From NCBI GenBank assembly GCA_017473945.1, contig JAFUIW010000063.1:1-41612 (forward strand): a stretch of DNA of 41,612 nt, given 5' to 3'. This stretch comes from Methanobrevibacter sp. GTDB lineage: Archaea > Methanobacteriota > Methanobacteria > Methanobacteriales > Methanobacteriaceae. Shown piece by piece: positions 30,491 to 41,553 of the stretch. Each line of letters opens with the position of its first letter. Position 1 is the first letter of the stretch. The notes under the pieces are model-generated. The model saw only the letters and a list, made by a program, of their open reading frames with translations, searched no databases and was not told the DNA's origin. The position numbers and the translations under genes are program-made.

Positions 30491-30623
30491 TTGTAATATC
30501 CCCCAATATATAGTTATATTTAATATTTTTAAGTTAATAAATATATCTATAATTTAAAAAAAGCATATTTGTTTAATATTTTTTAAAAAAACTAAACATT
30601 TATTAAAATAAGAAATGAAATAA

Positions 30624-30663
30624 ATACGAACTGTTCGTTTAAAACCTATAAAACAGTTCGTAT
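30624..30663. promoter_or_regulatory. Perfect 12-bp inverted repeat upstream of msvR
   Basis: ATACGAACTGTT (30624-30635) and AACAGTTCGTAT (30652-30663) are exact inverted copies separated by 16 bases. The left arm also forms TACGAA-CTG-TTCGT with the following bases, as in the dispersed repeats of the island. It sits 134 bases upstream of the msvR ATG and just after the tatD stop. Confidence 0.5.
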
Positions 30664-30687
30664 ACAAAACTGCAATACTTAAAAAAA

Positions 30688-34075: not shown

Positions 34076-34110
34076 CTTTGAAAACATTATTTCCAGAGAT
34101 GAAACCTAAA

Positions 34111-34175
34111 TACGAACAATTCGTATAAAACTTATAAAAAAATTCCGATACTTATCGATTTCAAGCACTAAAACT
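34111..34175 (+). repeat. Dispersed promoter-like repeat R2
   Basis: The best-formed copy: palindrome TACGAA-CAA-TTCGTA (34111-34125), TATA-like CTTATAAAAA (34131-34140), then a conserved CGATACTTATCGATTTC and AGCACTAAAAC tail. Other copies start near 34793, 35758, 36973 and 40777. Confidence 0.7.
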
Positions 34176-34313
34176 ACTGTATAAAACTAATTTTCTAATA
34201 AAATAAGAACTTAATAATAGGATAGAGTTAAAAATAACTCTAAACCATTATTAAAAATTGGAACCATAAAATGAATTCCAACGAATATCCAATAATACTA
34301 CTTTCCTTTTTTT
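34160..34313 (+). ncRNA. Candidate structured small RNA (copy A)
   Basis: Inferred from position: it starts about 25 bases after the R2 TATA element and ends at a T-run. It holds hairpin H1 (AGAGTT/AACTCT) and hairpin H2 (TTGGAA/TTCCAA, 12-base loop). In copy B both stems are kept while one base pair in each has changed on both sides (A-T to G-C, and G-C to A-T). No ORF is shared between copies here. Confidence 0.45.
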
Positions 34314-34342
34314 AATATATAAAATTTTGTAAAAAAATAAAA

Positions 34343-34370
34343 AGTAATACTTTATATAATAAAAGTAATA
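34343..34370 (+). promoter_or_regulatory. TATA box flanked by AGTAATA direct repeats (copy A)
   Basis: AGTAATA at 34343-34349 and 34364-34370, 21 bases apart (two helical turns), bracket TTTATATAA (34351-34358). The arrangement is kept exactly in copy B (41008-41035). Transcription would start near 34383, before the small ORF. Confidence 0.5.
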
Positions 34371-34424
34371 AATAATAGTACTCTGGAACAGATAAAAATT
34401 CTATATAAAATTAGGAGTCATAGA

Positions 34425-34544
34425 ATGATAAAGCGAATATCCAAAATATTTTATCCTCCTAAGGAAGGTGAGTTGATGGTAGAAATGCTTCTTGACTGCA
34501 TTATTTTTTTAATAGTCACTTATATTCCTACCTATATTAGTTAA
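34425..34544 (+). CDS. Candidate 39-residue hydrophobic peptide, copy A
   Basis: ATG 34425 has TTAGGAG seven bases upstream and gives 39 residues: a basic start (MIKRISKIFYPPKEGEL) and a hydrophobic C-terminal half (MVEMLLDCIIFL, then IVTYIPTYIS). A second in-frame ATG at 34476 has its own ribosome-binding site (GGAAGGTGA) and would give only the 22-residue hydrophobic part, which is the part conserved in copy B. The first ribosome-binding site (TTAGGAG, 34411-34417) can pair with CTCCTAA (34456-34462) just before the second. Size, hydrophobicity and RNA context recall type I toxins; function is inference. Confidence 0.55.
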   Translation: MIKRISKIFYPPKEGELMVEMLLDCIIFLIVTYIPTYIS

Positions 34545-34792
34545 GAATATAACAAGCATTTTTCTGATTGACGATTGATAGGAATCAAAGCTAGGTTAAC
34601 AGTTTTCAAGGTGAGGATTCTAAAAAACGAATTTCGATGAAGTGGAATTTTAATTTGTGACATTATTTGACAAATTGATTGAATTAATTAGTGTGGACCA
34701 CCAATCCACTCTACCATCACCTCAAATATATCAAAAAATCATTAACTTAAGAAAAATTTTAATTAAAAAAGCAACAATTAATCAAACATATT

Positions 34793-34858
34793 TACGAACA
34801 ATTCGTATAAAACGTATGATATTGTTCGCAACCTTATCGATTTCAATCACTAAAAACT
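34793..34858 (+). repeat. Dispersed repeat R3
   Basis: TACGAA-CAA-TTCGTA (34793-34807) followed by a variant core (AAACGTATGATATTG, shared with R4 instead of the TTATAAAA core) and the CTTATCGATTTCAA / CACTAAAA tail. It lies 43 bases before the 3' end of the zeta toxin gene. Confidence 0.6.
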
Positions 34859-34900: not shown

Positions 34901-35479
34901 TCAATTAATATATTCATTTATTCCTGTGAGCTTTTCAATATCAGAGTAATCCCAATATTTGTTCTCCCAATGATAATAGACATCCTTCCTTTTCTTGAAA
35001 ATTCTGAATGGAACAGTAGTATTATCATAAATATGAACAATATCGCAAATTTCAACCAATTCAGGAATAAGTTTTAGTGCCTTATAATATCTTGATTTGA
35101 TTTTATCTTCAGGAACAGCATGGCCACCCATTGACTCCCTCATCCTCACTCTTGCCACATTAATTTTAAAATCAGAAGTTAAAACATAGATGCATCTGAT
35201 AAAAAATCCTTTTTCTTTAGCTTTTTTAAGTAATTTAAGATTTCTATCTGTAGAAAGCACAGTTTCAAATGTAAAATCTTCATGTTTATCCAACATTGAT
35301 TCTCTAAGCTCTTCAGCTTTAACTGCCGCTTCCAAATCACTGCACAAACTTGATTTTTTAATATCATCAGCGTTAATGTAAACACCAACAGTTCTAGCCA
35401 TCCGAGTTATTGTAGTCTTTCCACTACCGTTTGGACCCGCAAAAACAATAATTTCAGGAAGTCGCTCAGTCTTTGACAT
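34901..35479 (-). CDS. Zeta-toxin-like kinase (COG4185 type)
   Basis: A 192-residue P-loop protein with Walker A GPNGSGKT (residues 15-22), INADDIKKS, FTFETVLSTDRN and RVRMRESMGGHAVPEDKI, all typical of the zeta-toxin/UDP-GlcNAc kinase-like family; zeta toxins poison cell-wall precursor synthesis in bacteria. The archaeal target is unknown, though pseudomurein precursors are a reasonable guess. ATG 35479 is preferred (GGAGAG upstream) over 35494. It overlaps the small upstream gene by 14 bases, the expected antitoxin-toxin arrangement. Confidence 0.82.
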   Translation of the reverse strand: MSKTERLPEIIVFAGPNGSGKTTITRMARTVGVYINADDIKKSSLCSDLEAAVKAEELRESMLDKHEDFTFETVLSTDRNLKLLKKAKEKGFFIRCIYVLTSDFKINVARVRMRESMGGHAVPEDKIKSRYYKALKLIPELVEICDIVHIYDNTTVPFRIFKKRKDVYYHWENKYWDYSDIEKLTGINEYIN

Positions 35480-35660
35480 AAACTCTCCTTCCATCAGGAT
35501 ATTCTAAATAAGCACATTTATTTTCATCATCATAACCAGCAATAGGAAGTCCTTTAATCTTACATATTTCTTGATCAATTCTAATAGCTGCCTTAAATCT
35601 TTCAGTAAGCTCTTCATCAGAAATACCACAGGTAGAATCCAGCTCATTACCTTCAGTCAA
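35466..35660 (-). CDS. Putative antitoxin partner of the zeta-like toxin
   Basis: A 64-residue acidic protein with an N-terminal helix (ISDEELTERFKAAIRIDQEICKI) and a C-terminal beta part (KGLPIAGYDDENKCAYLEYPDGRR). The 'GLPI ... YPDGR' plan is what one sees in small proteins encoded directly before COG4185 toxins. The start is TTG 35660 with GGGAGGAAT upstream. It overlaps the toxin gene and is transcribed first. Antitoxin function is inferred from context. Confidence 0.7.
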   Translation of the reverse strand: MTEGNELDSTCGISDEELTERFKAAIRIDQEICKIKGLPIAGYDDENKCAYLEYPDGRRVYVKD

Positions 35661-35757
35661 AATAATTCCTCCCTATTTAATTGTACTATAATCTATAAAC
35701 TTCATTTATAATAAATATTTTTGAAGTGCAACTTTATGAAAAAACACAATTGTCATT

Positions 35758-36010
35758 ATAAACCGTATGATATTGTTCGCAATCTTATCAATTTCAAGCA
35801 CTGAAACTCCAATCAATTGTTTTCTAGTTATTATTAAATCCTTTGAAACTGAGGAAGATACAAAAATTAAATAAACAACAACACTCCATAAATTCATTAT
35901 AACAGAATATTGTTTTAACTTCGTAAAATTGCTCTAACATCGTAAAATTTCTTTTATTTCAAACAAAAACTATATTTACTTCATAATTTAATATAATATT
36001 AAGTAATTTT
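35758..36010 (+). repeat. Duplicated promoter segment R4, upstream of the DinD-like gene
   Basis: The 379-base gap 35661-36039 holds this segment. It starts with a dispersed-repeat tail (CGTATGATATTG ... AGCACTGAAAC) and continues through sequence shared with R5 (36973-37230), including AACTCCATAAATTCATT-like and TTTCAAACAAAAACTATATTTA stretches. Two tandem motifs lie in it: TAACTTCGTAAAATTGC (35916-35932) and TAACATCGTAAAATTTC (35935-35951). A TATA-like TTTAATATAA lies near 35988. Confidence 0.65.
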
Positions 36011-36039: not shown

Positions 36040-36864
36040 ATGGATGAAAAATATGCTATAAAATTATTTGAAGAATATAAGATAAGAACTAAATGGGATC
36101 CTGAAATTGAAGATTACTATTATTCAGTGATAGATGTTATTGCAGTGCTTACAGAAAGTCAAAATCCCAATAGATATTGGAGCGACTTAAAAAGGAAACT
36201 ATCAGATGAATCTGGTCAACCTTACGAAAATATCGTAAGGTTGAAACTTAAAGCTACCGATGGCAAAATGCGTAAAACTGATGCTGCCAATACTAAACAA
36301 TTATTAAGAATCATACAATCAGTTCCTTCCCCAAAAGCCGAACCTTTTAAACAATGGCTAGCTCAAATGGGTAAAGAGAGACTTGAAGAAATAGCAGACC
36401 CTGAAATTGCCATGCAAAGGGCAATCAACACCTACCGCGATAAAGGATATTCCGAAGAATGGATAACCCAAAGAATGAGAACCATTGAAACCAGAAAGGA
36501 ACTGACTGCCGAATGGAACAGGGCGGGAGTCAATGAAGGAATTGAATATGCAATTCTAACTGATGATATATCCAAAGCATGGTCAGGAATGTCAACAAAA
36601 GAATACAAACAATACAAAGGACTTAAAAAAGAAGGCCTAAGAGACAACATGACCAACATTGAATTAATATTAAACACACTGGCAGAAGCATCAACAACTG
36701 AAATCAGCAAAGTTGAAAATCCAGATGGGTTTGATGAAAGCCGTGACGTTGCAAAACGTGGCGGTAACATTGCAGGAAATGCAAGAAAAGAACTTGAAGC
36801 AGTAACTGGCAAATCAGTCATCAGCAAAAAGAATTCTAAAAATCCTGAATTATTGGATGAATAA
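36040..36864 (+). CDS. DinD-like Bro-N domain protein (phage antirepressor family)
   Basis: 274 residues. The N-terminal Bro-N domain (DYYYSVIDVIAVLTES, then WSDLKRKL, then LRIIQSVPSPKAEPFKQWLA) is the DNA-binding module of phage antirepressors. The C-terminus (YKQYKGLKKEGLRDNMTNIE, then EASTTEIS, then DVAKRGGNIAGNARKELE) matches E. coli DinD, an SOS-induced inhibitor of RecA filaments, of equal length. Thus a DinD homologue, possibly induced by damage or phage. AAAGGAGG lies upstream. Tandem 19-base-spaced motifs in its promoter are shared with the small-gene cassette. Confidence 0.83.
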   Translation: MDEKYAIKLFEEYKIRTKWDPEIEDYYYSVIDVIAVLTESQNPNRYWSDLKRKLSDESGQPYENIVRLKLKATDGKMRKTDAANTKQLLRIIQSVPSPKAEPFKQWLAQMGKERLEEIADPEIAMQRAINTYRDKGYSEEWITQRMRTIETRKELTAEWNRAGVNEGIEYAILTDDISKAWSGMSTKEYKQYKGLKKEGLRDNMTNIELILNTLAEASTTEISKVENPDGFDESRDVAKRGGNIAGNARKELEAVTGKSVISKKNSKNPELLDE

Positions 36865-36972: not shown

Positions 36973-37230
36973 AAACAATTTGTATAAAACTTATAAAAAA
37001 GCCGATATTACTCTTTTTCAGCACTGAAACTCTGATAAAAAATTTCTTTTGTAGTGATTGATAAATCATTTGAAACTGCGGAAGATAATAAAATTAAATC
37101 AGCAATACAACTCCATAAATTCATTGTTAATATGAATATTGTTTTAACTTCATAAAATTGCTCTAACATTGTAAAATTGCTTTTATTTCAAACAAAAACT
37201 ATATTTATTCTTAAATTAATATAATACTAA
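36973..37230 (+). repeat. Duplicated promoter segment R5, upstream of the small-gene cassette
   Basis: The 412-base gap 36865-37276 holds this copy. It has a degenerate palindrome (AAACAATTTGTA), the TTATAAAAAA core, the TTTTTCAGCACTGAAAC tail, then about 190 bases homologous to R4, including TAACTTCATAAAATTGC (37145-37161) and TAACATTGTAAAATTGC (37164-37180), again spaced by 19. Confidence 0.65.
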
Positions 37231-40535: not shown

Positions 40536-40826
40536 TTTTAAAACCTTTATTTTTTATTTTAAAAAATTTAATTCAATATTATATTTAATTACAAATTTTA
40601 TAAGCTTTTTGTTTAAAATAAAAACAATATTATTATGTTAAAGCAATTTTACAGAAGTAAAACAATTTTTATAAAAGAAATTCTTAAAATAAAAAAGAAC
40701 ACTATTGAAAACATAACATAACCTGTAACATTACCAACAAAATTTAATTAATTAGGCAAATTATTTTGAAAAAAAATGCAAACTGTTCGTATAAAACTTA
40801 TAAAAAAGTTCCGATACTTACTCTTT

Positions 40827-40978
40827 TTCAGCACTGAAACGCCCATATGAAATTTATTTTCAAAAACAAAAGAACATAATAATAAGAATAGGGTTAAAAA
40901 CAAACCCTAAACCATTATTAAAATTAGAAATTCAAATTGAATTCTAACAAACATCCAATAATAATAGTTAATTTTTTT
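40827..40978 (+). ncRNA. Candidate structured small RNA (copy B)
   Basis: Positional equivalent of 34160-34313, from about 25 bases after the R6 TATA core to a seven-T run. H1 is AGGGTT/AACCCT and H2 is TTAGAA/TTCTAA with the same 12-base loop length as in copy A. Ends are inferred. Confidence 0.45.
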
Positions 40979-41007
40979 AATATATAAAATTTCATAAAAA
41001 AACTAAA

Positions 41008-41035
41008 AGTAATACTTTATATAAAAAAAGTAATA
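41008..41035 (+). promoter_or_regulatory. TATA box flanked by AGTAATA direct repeats (copy B)
   Basis: AGTAATA at 41008-41014 and 41029-41035 bracket TTTATATAA (41016-41024), with the same 21-base spacing as in copy A. Confidence 0.5.
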
Positions 41036-41088
41036 AATAATAATACTCTGGAACTGATAAAAATTTTTACAAATTAGGAGTAATCAAA

Positions 41089-41139
41089 TTGATAAAACAG
41101 ACATCCAAATCTTTTATCCTCCTAAGGAAGGTGAGTTGA
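41089..41139 (+). CDS. Candidate 16-residue leader peptide in copy B
   Basis: TTG 41089 with AGGAG eight bases upstream encodes MIKQTSKSFILLRKVS and stops at TGA 41137-41139, which overlaps the next ATG (TGATG). Its first residues match the start of the 39-residue ORF of copy A; loss of one A in the run near 41107-41109 shifts the frame. It could couple translation to the following ORF, or simply mark a broken longer gene. Confidence 0.3.
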   Translation: MIKQTSKSFILLRKVS

Positions 41140-41207
41140 TGGTAGAAATGCTTCTTGACTGCATTATTTTTTTAGCAGCCACTTATATTCATACCTACAT
41201 TGGTTAA
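41139..41207 (+). CDS. Candidate 22-residue hydrophobic peptide, copy B
   Basis: ATG 41139 with GGAAGGTGA upstream encodes MVEMLLDCIIFL followed by AATYIHTYIG. Compared with copy A, the differences are conservative or synonymous except for IV to AA and P to H. It would span a membrane once or lie amphipathically on it. Confidence 0.45.
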   Translation: MVEMLLDCIIFLAATYIHTYIG

Positions 41208-41553
41208 GAATATAAGAAGCATTTTCTAATTGACGATTGATATGAATCAAATCTAGGTTGACAGTTTTCAAGGCGAGGATTTCTAAAAAACGAAGTTCAA
41301 TGAATTGGAATTTTAATTTGTGACATTATTTGACTAATTGACTGAATTAATTAGTGGGTGGATCTACCAATCCACCATACCATCACTCCACAAATACTCT
41401 AAAATAAAAGTATTAAAAAATTTTCATGAAAAATTTATGTTTCTCATGTTTTCAAGAATCTATAAATTTTCCAATGCCGTCAACCTAATTTTTAATTTCA
41501 TATTTTTTTCCTTTTATGTTGGTCTGTAGTTCAGATTGAATTTTCTCTGTTTT

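Follow-up and report, generated by a model that had tools for sequence, protein, structure and literature searches.

In the hok and AapA1 mRNAs, the 5′ and 3′ ends pair with one another. In hok/Sok the mok leader frame overlaps hok, and the region of this frame is the antisense target (PMC4147584). Four Escherichia coli loci, tisB/IstR-1, zorO/OrzO, shoB/OhsC, and dinQ/AgrB, combine a small hydrophobic peptide with a divergently encoded small RNA, whose 18–21 nt of complementarity fall in the toxin 5′ UTR at a distance from the toxin start; the tandem copies zorO and zorP owe their specificity to a variable region, V1 (PMC3919570, PMC4147584). CreTA is an archaeal toxin–antitoxin system whose parts include small RNAs, a mini-ORF, and a stem-loop downstream; it needs Cascade and acts at the promoter, and its toxin is an RNA (PMC8501985). 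A 2025 report on msoT1/msoA1 of Microcystis, in the accessible part of its text, calls this pair the first type I system outside Proteobacteria, Firmicutes, and Tenericutes, places type I systems in bacteria only, and mentions no archaeal case (PMC12390103). We found no report of an archaeal type I system in the literature searched, where coverage of subscription journals was thin.

Here we analyze a 41,612-nucleotide stretch of Methanobrevibacter sp. DNA (assembly GCA_017473945.1, contig JAFUIW010000063.1; hereafter the window), which carries two copies of an element, labeled w1 (copy 1) and w2 (copy 2). Like the four E. coli loci, the element appears to combine a small hydrophobic peptide with a divergent small RNA. 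We put a probability of roughly 0.78 on its being a type I toxin–antitoxin-like locus, in which the small RNA would block translation of a 22-residue membrane peptide. An earlier note on this DNA had guessed at a type I toxin–antitoxin or regulatory small-protein system, and the comparative evidence below points in that direction.

Results

A repeated element and its family

The two copies (34099–34740 and 40774–41396) are 85% identical across 620 bases, and both carry the 22-residue ORF. The longest exact run between them is 63 bases (34449–34511 = 41112–41174) and is maximal. The repeated element of about 610 bases described in the earlier note is therefore real, but calling it two-copy understated its extent. 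Two more, diverged copies lie in the same genome (contigs C20 and C24), and DNA queries against 67 genomes of the genus Methanobrevibacter gave a family of 23 loci in 16 of the 67 species genomes (24% of the genus, a share that we count against the type I reading). The proposal had been staked on further copies in related genomes, and these exist. Additional DNA queries gave no extra confirmed locus and one weak remnant (G019). Provenance labels of several family-bearing metagenome assemblies name the rumen (RUG), goat omasum, and roe deer jejunum.

No real family member was found among the phages, plasmids, and viral contigs searched. DNA matches beyond the genus were rejected because they are confined to an AT-rich promoter stretch, and pattern matches in Flavobacteria, Clostridia, and other bacteria were set aside as chance, as the profile did not confirm them. 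The earlier note knew of no matching family, and the Rfam search likewise gave none above the gathering threshold and nothing convincing at a permissive one; the 22-residue peptide has no Pfam or NCBIfam match.

Eighteen of the 23 loci appear intact, and in these the antitoxin block always accompanies an intact peptide gene and promoter, with no exception found. In G003 and G082:C3, a deletion between the two tag copies has removed both promoters together. In G077, other sequence that reads like a transposase end has taken the place of the promoters, with the antitoxin block on a different contig; in G016 the peptide is frameshifted and the antitoxin retained; and G036 is a tail remnant only. 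Comparative tests used 17 distinct aligned copies. In the alignment, a left and a right block flank about 85 bp that hold two TATA boxes, and the comparison predicts two divergent transcription units per locus (Table 1).

Table 1. Positions, in window coordinates, of the element's features and associated motifs; transcripts, folds, and promoters are predicted
Feature	Copy	Positions	Strand	Remarks
Proposed antitoxin small RNA	1	34204–34295	−	Tag + SL1 + SL2, U-rich 3′ end
Antitoxin parts (predicted fold)	1	Tag ~34282–34295; SL1 34258–34281; SL2 34211–34254	−
Proposed antitoxin small RNA	2	40869–40960	−	SL2 40876–40920; SL1 40924–40947; tag ~40946–40960
Specificity tag UUGGAUAUUCG	1	34282–34292	−	Exact complement of leader 34434–34444
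Antitoxin SL1	1	34258–34281	−	Loop versus SD1/uORF start: 34260–34274 with mRNA 34414–34428, 15 bp including G-U (predicted duplex)
Antitoxin TATA box	1	34311–34326	−	TTTATATA on minus strand, ~30 nt ahead of tag
Antitoxin TATA box	2	40976–40991	−	
Toxin promoter motif GTAATACTTTATATAATAAAAGTAATA	1	34344–34370	+	TATA box between GTAATA repeats; kept in intact copies
Toxin promoter motif	2	41009–41035	+	
Conserved toxin mRNA 5′ end CUCUGGAAC.GAUAAAAAUU	1	34381–34400	+	Nearly invariant
SD1, uORF ribosome site	1	34411–34417	+	Complementary to arm 34456–34462
uORF	1	34425–34544	+	In frame with toxin ORF, runs through it
uORF	2	41089–41139	+	TTG start, 16 codons, TGA overlaps toxin ATG
Tag target CGAAUAUCCAA in toxin leader	1	34434–34444	+	Complement of antitoxin tag
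Arm CUCCUAA	1	34456–34462	+	Able to pair with SD1 or SD2
SD2, toxin ribosome site	1	34461–34471	+	Just downstream of CUCC arm
Toxin-like peptide ORF	1	34476–34544	+	22 residues, MVEMLLDCIIFLIVTYIPTYIS
Toxin-like peptide ORF	2	41139–41207	+	MVEMLLDCIIFLAATYIHTYIG
Hairpin within ORF	1	34494–34517	+	Best fixed-register stem in ORF, 93% of cells paired, compensatory changes
Conserved 3′ UTR core AGUUUUCAAGGUGA ... UGGAAUUUUAAU.UGUGACAU	1	34593–34663	+	Among the most conserved parts
Terminal hairpin + 3′ CUACCAUCA	1	34691–34721	+	Complementary to toxin start UGAUGGUAG
Terminal hairpin + 3′ UACCAUCAC	2	41357–41386	+	Complementary to toxin start
~65-bp repeat units		34110–34172, 34792–34855, 35757–35806, 36974–37028, 40776–40839	+
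Further ~65-bp repeat units		30615–30665; loci L158–L164
Promoter motif at pilin-like operon		Loci L166, L172–L174, L176, L181, L183, L184, L186, L187

The peptide gene and its mRNA

In the 16 intact distinct loci the peptide is hydrophobic, 19–26 residues long, and of the pattern xLxDxIxFLAxTY, well within the size (<60 residues) of the small hydrophobic peptides of type I systems. Diverged copies retain the pattern (MVEMLLDCIIFLIVTY; MVAVLFDGIIFLAITY; MEAVILDSIFFLAVTY). Over codons 2–16, pN/pS is 0.44 in frame versus 0.62 and 1.26 in the other frames. The hairpin within the ORF is kept by compensatory changes, so that the DNA here is under double constraint.

Nearly all exact matches to the toxin promoter (GTAATACTTTATATA...GTAATA) in the 67 genomes fall at the element. 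From it, the plus-strand mRNA is predicted to start at ~34380. The mRNA 5′ end, CUGGAAC..AUAAAAAUU, is among the most conserved parts in all intact copies, as is the 3′ UTR core. Pairing of this 5′ end with antitoxin SL2 was tested with a negative result and has no support. At its 3′ end the mRNA has a terminal hairpin and the conserved sequence ACCAUCAC. Pairing between the 3′ end and the peptide start covaries (AUGGUA/UACCAU and AUGGUU/AACCAU, for example), with modest permutation support, as 743 of 100,000 permutations reach the observed value.

The leader holds an upstream frame (uORF), which in 17/17 loci is open into the peptide start or ends ≤3 nt short of it, against 6.0 loci expected from shuffles; the shuffle probabilities multiply to 1e-8 when relatedness is ignored. 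In 16 of the 17 leaders, an ATG or TTG lies 6–13 nt past an SD-like motif, and the sole start candidate of the G018a uORF is ATT. The frame of the uORF relative to the peptide varies between loci, and the uORF stop codon, TGA, overlaps the peptide ATG in w2 and G084; together, these features favor translational coupling over an extended protein. Complementarity between SD1 and the downstream arm covaries, and 0 of 100,000 permutations reach it. Pairing of the arm with SD2 is conserved but lacks locus-specific covariation (97,457 of 100,000 permutations were at least as good).

A predicted divergent antisense RNA

The earlier note had read two hairpins and a T-run as part of one plus-strand order of elements. 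They are most simply interpreted as a divergent small RNA on the minus strand. What that reading missed, and what we regard as decisive, is that the predicted 5′ tag of this RNA would pair with the leader of its own locus. In the predicted fold, a 5′ tag of about 15 nt stays unpaired and is followed by SL1 and a long SL2, and the 17 relatives are broadly similar. RNAalifold on an unanchored alignment yielded little, and anchored pairing tests were used instead; SL2 has compensatory changes at 5/5 consensus pairs. Upstream of the antitoxin TATA box, purines make up 77% on the minus strand versus 38% on the plus strand (17 loci), and the tag complement sits at the start-site distance expected from the minus-strand TATA box.

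Close to where the left block starts, a stretch of ~8–14 nt recurs in the leader of the same locus but is not the same from one locus to the next (CGAATATCCAA in copy 1, AATCAACACTCTAA in G023, ACTTAACATTCCA in G018b). The resulting tag helices are perfect, 8–15 bp long, and at near-constant positions in 17/17 loci, and loci with similar bodies carry different tags. An antisense RNA encoded by the left block would be expected to form, through its 5′ region, a stable duplex with the leader of the same locus and weak ones with the leaders of other loci. Unconstrained duplex prediction across the 17 distinct loci gave mean energies of −27.3 kcal/mol for cognate pairs, −10.6 kcal/mol for non-cognate pairs, and −9.3 for shuffled antitoxins. 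The cognate partner ranks first in 15/17 loci and second in the remaining 2/17, and 0 of 100,000 label permutations match the observed cognate sum, although such counts are not strict probabilities because the loci are related. Two blocks make up the predicted pairing. In one, the tag faces early codons of the uORF; in the other, the loop of SL1 faces SD1 and the start of the uORF. Within the window, the cognate pairs score −42.9 and −39.6 and the cross-pairs −22.8 and −32.7, so that the two copies may cross-talk to some degree. The antitoxin RNA, which we infer to be produced, would thus be complementary to the toxin mRNA, as in type I systems.

Genomic setting

Two chromosomal sites recur, one beside the AmmeMemoRadiSam radical SAM gene (TIGR04337) and the other between metG and priL. 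Three species carry copies of the w1 type that are 98% identical and occupy different sites, where the 65-bp repeat borders them; such a distribution of near-identical copies resembles that of mobile addiction modules. The repeat, at 34110–34172 and 40776–40839 beside the two window copies, also occurs without the element and borders other cassettes, so that the “repeat promoter” previously assigned to the element is instead a separate cassette-flanking repeat.

The flanking repeats are integron-like in look, but an integron reading was rejected since a complete relative has no tyrosine recombinase beside its array (array, 115–122 kb; nearest Phage_integrase match, 449 kb). A transposon-end reading was also dropped, as alignments show no terminal repeats joining the flanks of the chromosomal copies.

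Discussion

The anatomy of the element, the coding conservation of the peptide, the locus-specific complementarity, the always open uORF, and the 3′-to-start complementarity suggest a mechanism in which two transcripts, translational coupling, antisense repression, and toxicity would each have a part. The plus-strand mRNA would encode the 22-residue membrane peptide, and a small RNA from a divergent minus-strand promoter ~30 bp away would pair with this mRNA and stop its translation. The CUCC arm and the mRNA 3′ end could each close SD2, and we propose that ribosomes must consequently enter at SD1 and read the uORF. Translation of the uORF would open the arm and deliver ribosomes to the peptide start. 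The antitoxin, whose tag would cover the early codons of the uORF and whose first loop would cover SD1 and the start of the uORF, would shut both; that the predicted target spans SD1 and the uORF start is consistent with blocked translation. When the antitoxin is lost or outrun, the peptide would be made and would presumably damage the membrane.

The layout of the divergent E. coli subgroup, in which a divergent antitoxin has short 5′ complementarity to the toxin 5′ UTR, recurs here in 17/17 loci, with the SL1 block in addition. Searches of Rfam, Pfam, and NCBIfam gave no homology of peptide or RNA to those families, and the archaeal loci differ from them in having no sequence relation that we could find, TATA promoters, and no known LexA control. 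The target differs as well, being SD1 and the uORF start here rather than a known standby site, and the archaeal antitoxin, unlike the E. coli ones, has two separate pairing regions, its tag and its SL1 loop. Against the type I reading we count that the peptide, in contrast to TisB and AapA1, carries few positive charges, that the arm–SD2 pairing lacks covariation and the long-range pairing has modest support, and that the uORF varies in frame and in G018a can start at ATT only. The likeness to hok/Sok lies in the leader frame as antisense target and in an mRNA 3′ end that could pair with the region around the start. Sok, however, overlaps its target in cis, whereas the archaeal antitoxin gene is separate from its target and divergent; moreover, the archaeal peptide is about half the length of hok and unrelated to it, and the frame of the uORF varies, unlike in hok/Sok. 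The msoT1/msoA1 pair is likewise type I-like outside the classical phyla, but it is bacterial. As far as we have found, a divergent antitoxin and a leader frame in a single locus are new. On balance, we lean toward regarding these loci as the first archaeal type I family, one that joins divergent-antitoxin, leader-frame, and long-range-lock features, whose tags have diversified into largely orthogonal pairs, and which moves, as a cassette, within the shuffled arrays with repeat borders that gut Methanobrevibacter carry.

Several other readings of the element have to be weighed against a type I-like locus. The same RNA circuit could serve a regulatory or structural small membrane protein whose dose the divergent small RNA tunes. 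The RNA evidence suits any peptide repressed by a small RNA, several copies are syntenic over many species at the radical SAM and metG–priL sites, as a useful gene would be, and the promoter motif resembles that of the class III signal-peptide operon. We nevertheless consider this account unlikely, because the patchy spread over 16/67 genomes, the several diverged copies per genome with separate tags, the mobility of the cassette, the broken copies, and the finding that promoter-bearing peptide genes never occur without the antitoxin are the usual signs of toxin–antitoxin systems. Those broken copies, together with near-identical copies at different sites and flanking repeats, might also suggest a decayed mobile element without function. 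This is hardly credible, as it is contradicted by the locus-specific complementarity and covariation and by the uORF being always open, and since diverged copies keep both in-frame conservation and compensatory stems.

The direction in which the upstream block is transcribed bears on a further alternative, that the block is a plus-strand structured RNA and the repeated tag a shared site for a third factor rather than an antisense sequence. On DNA the tags are direct repeats, with the same letters in a plus-strand RNA, and the TATA boxes are nearly palindromic. The purines on the usual BRE side of the first TATA box, however, are found on the minus strand only, where the tag also coincides with the expected start site and a U-rich stretch forms the 3′ end; SL1 pairs with SD1 and the uORF start as well; and the tags are free to vary between loci and yet matched within each, which a common factor would not need. 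We therefore regard a plus-strand RNA as very improbable. Least probable of all, to the point of being nearly negligible, is a minimal CRISPR-linked module of the CreTA type, in which an RNA toxin would be controlled by a guide RNA. CreTA is also archaeal and also comprises small RNAs and a tiny ORF, along with its stem-loop (PMC8501985). CreA, however, matches the toxin promoter and lies in the toxin operon, whereas here the match falls in the transcribed leader, ~55–65 nt past the predicted start, and the RNA is divergent with two hairpins. CreA also has CRISPR-repeat analogues, of which none were seen here by eye, and the conservation of the ORF here is that of a peptide and extends past a few rare codons.

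If well supported, the archaeal family would extend type I systems to a second domain. Were the proposed mechanism true, a methanogen's SD-dependent leader frame could be under antisense-RNA control, and the element would be a candidate stabilization module for methanogen genetics. The family would also supply many natural cognate and non-cognate pairs for probing pairing rules.

The toxin promoter motif also precedes a conserved operon for a class III signal-peptide (pilin-like) protein (Table 1), and it is possible that the element and this operon share a regulator. In the arrays, the ~65-bp repeat separates small gene cassettes, in a single orientation throughout each array, and cassettes such as those of a 395-aa ATPase, a TPR protein, and redox/regulator groups reappear reordered in other species. 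Adjoining copy 1 in the array is a Zeta-toxin-like kinase gene (PF06414; 34901–35494, minus strand) with a small upstream ORF (35466–35660, minus strand), possibly a second toxin–antitoxin pair. Farther along, a Bro-N gene (36040–36864) has direct repeats on both sides, of 82 bp with 83% identity at 35817–35978 and of 74 bp with 96% identity at 37044–37207.
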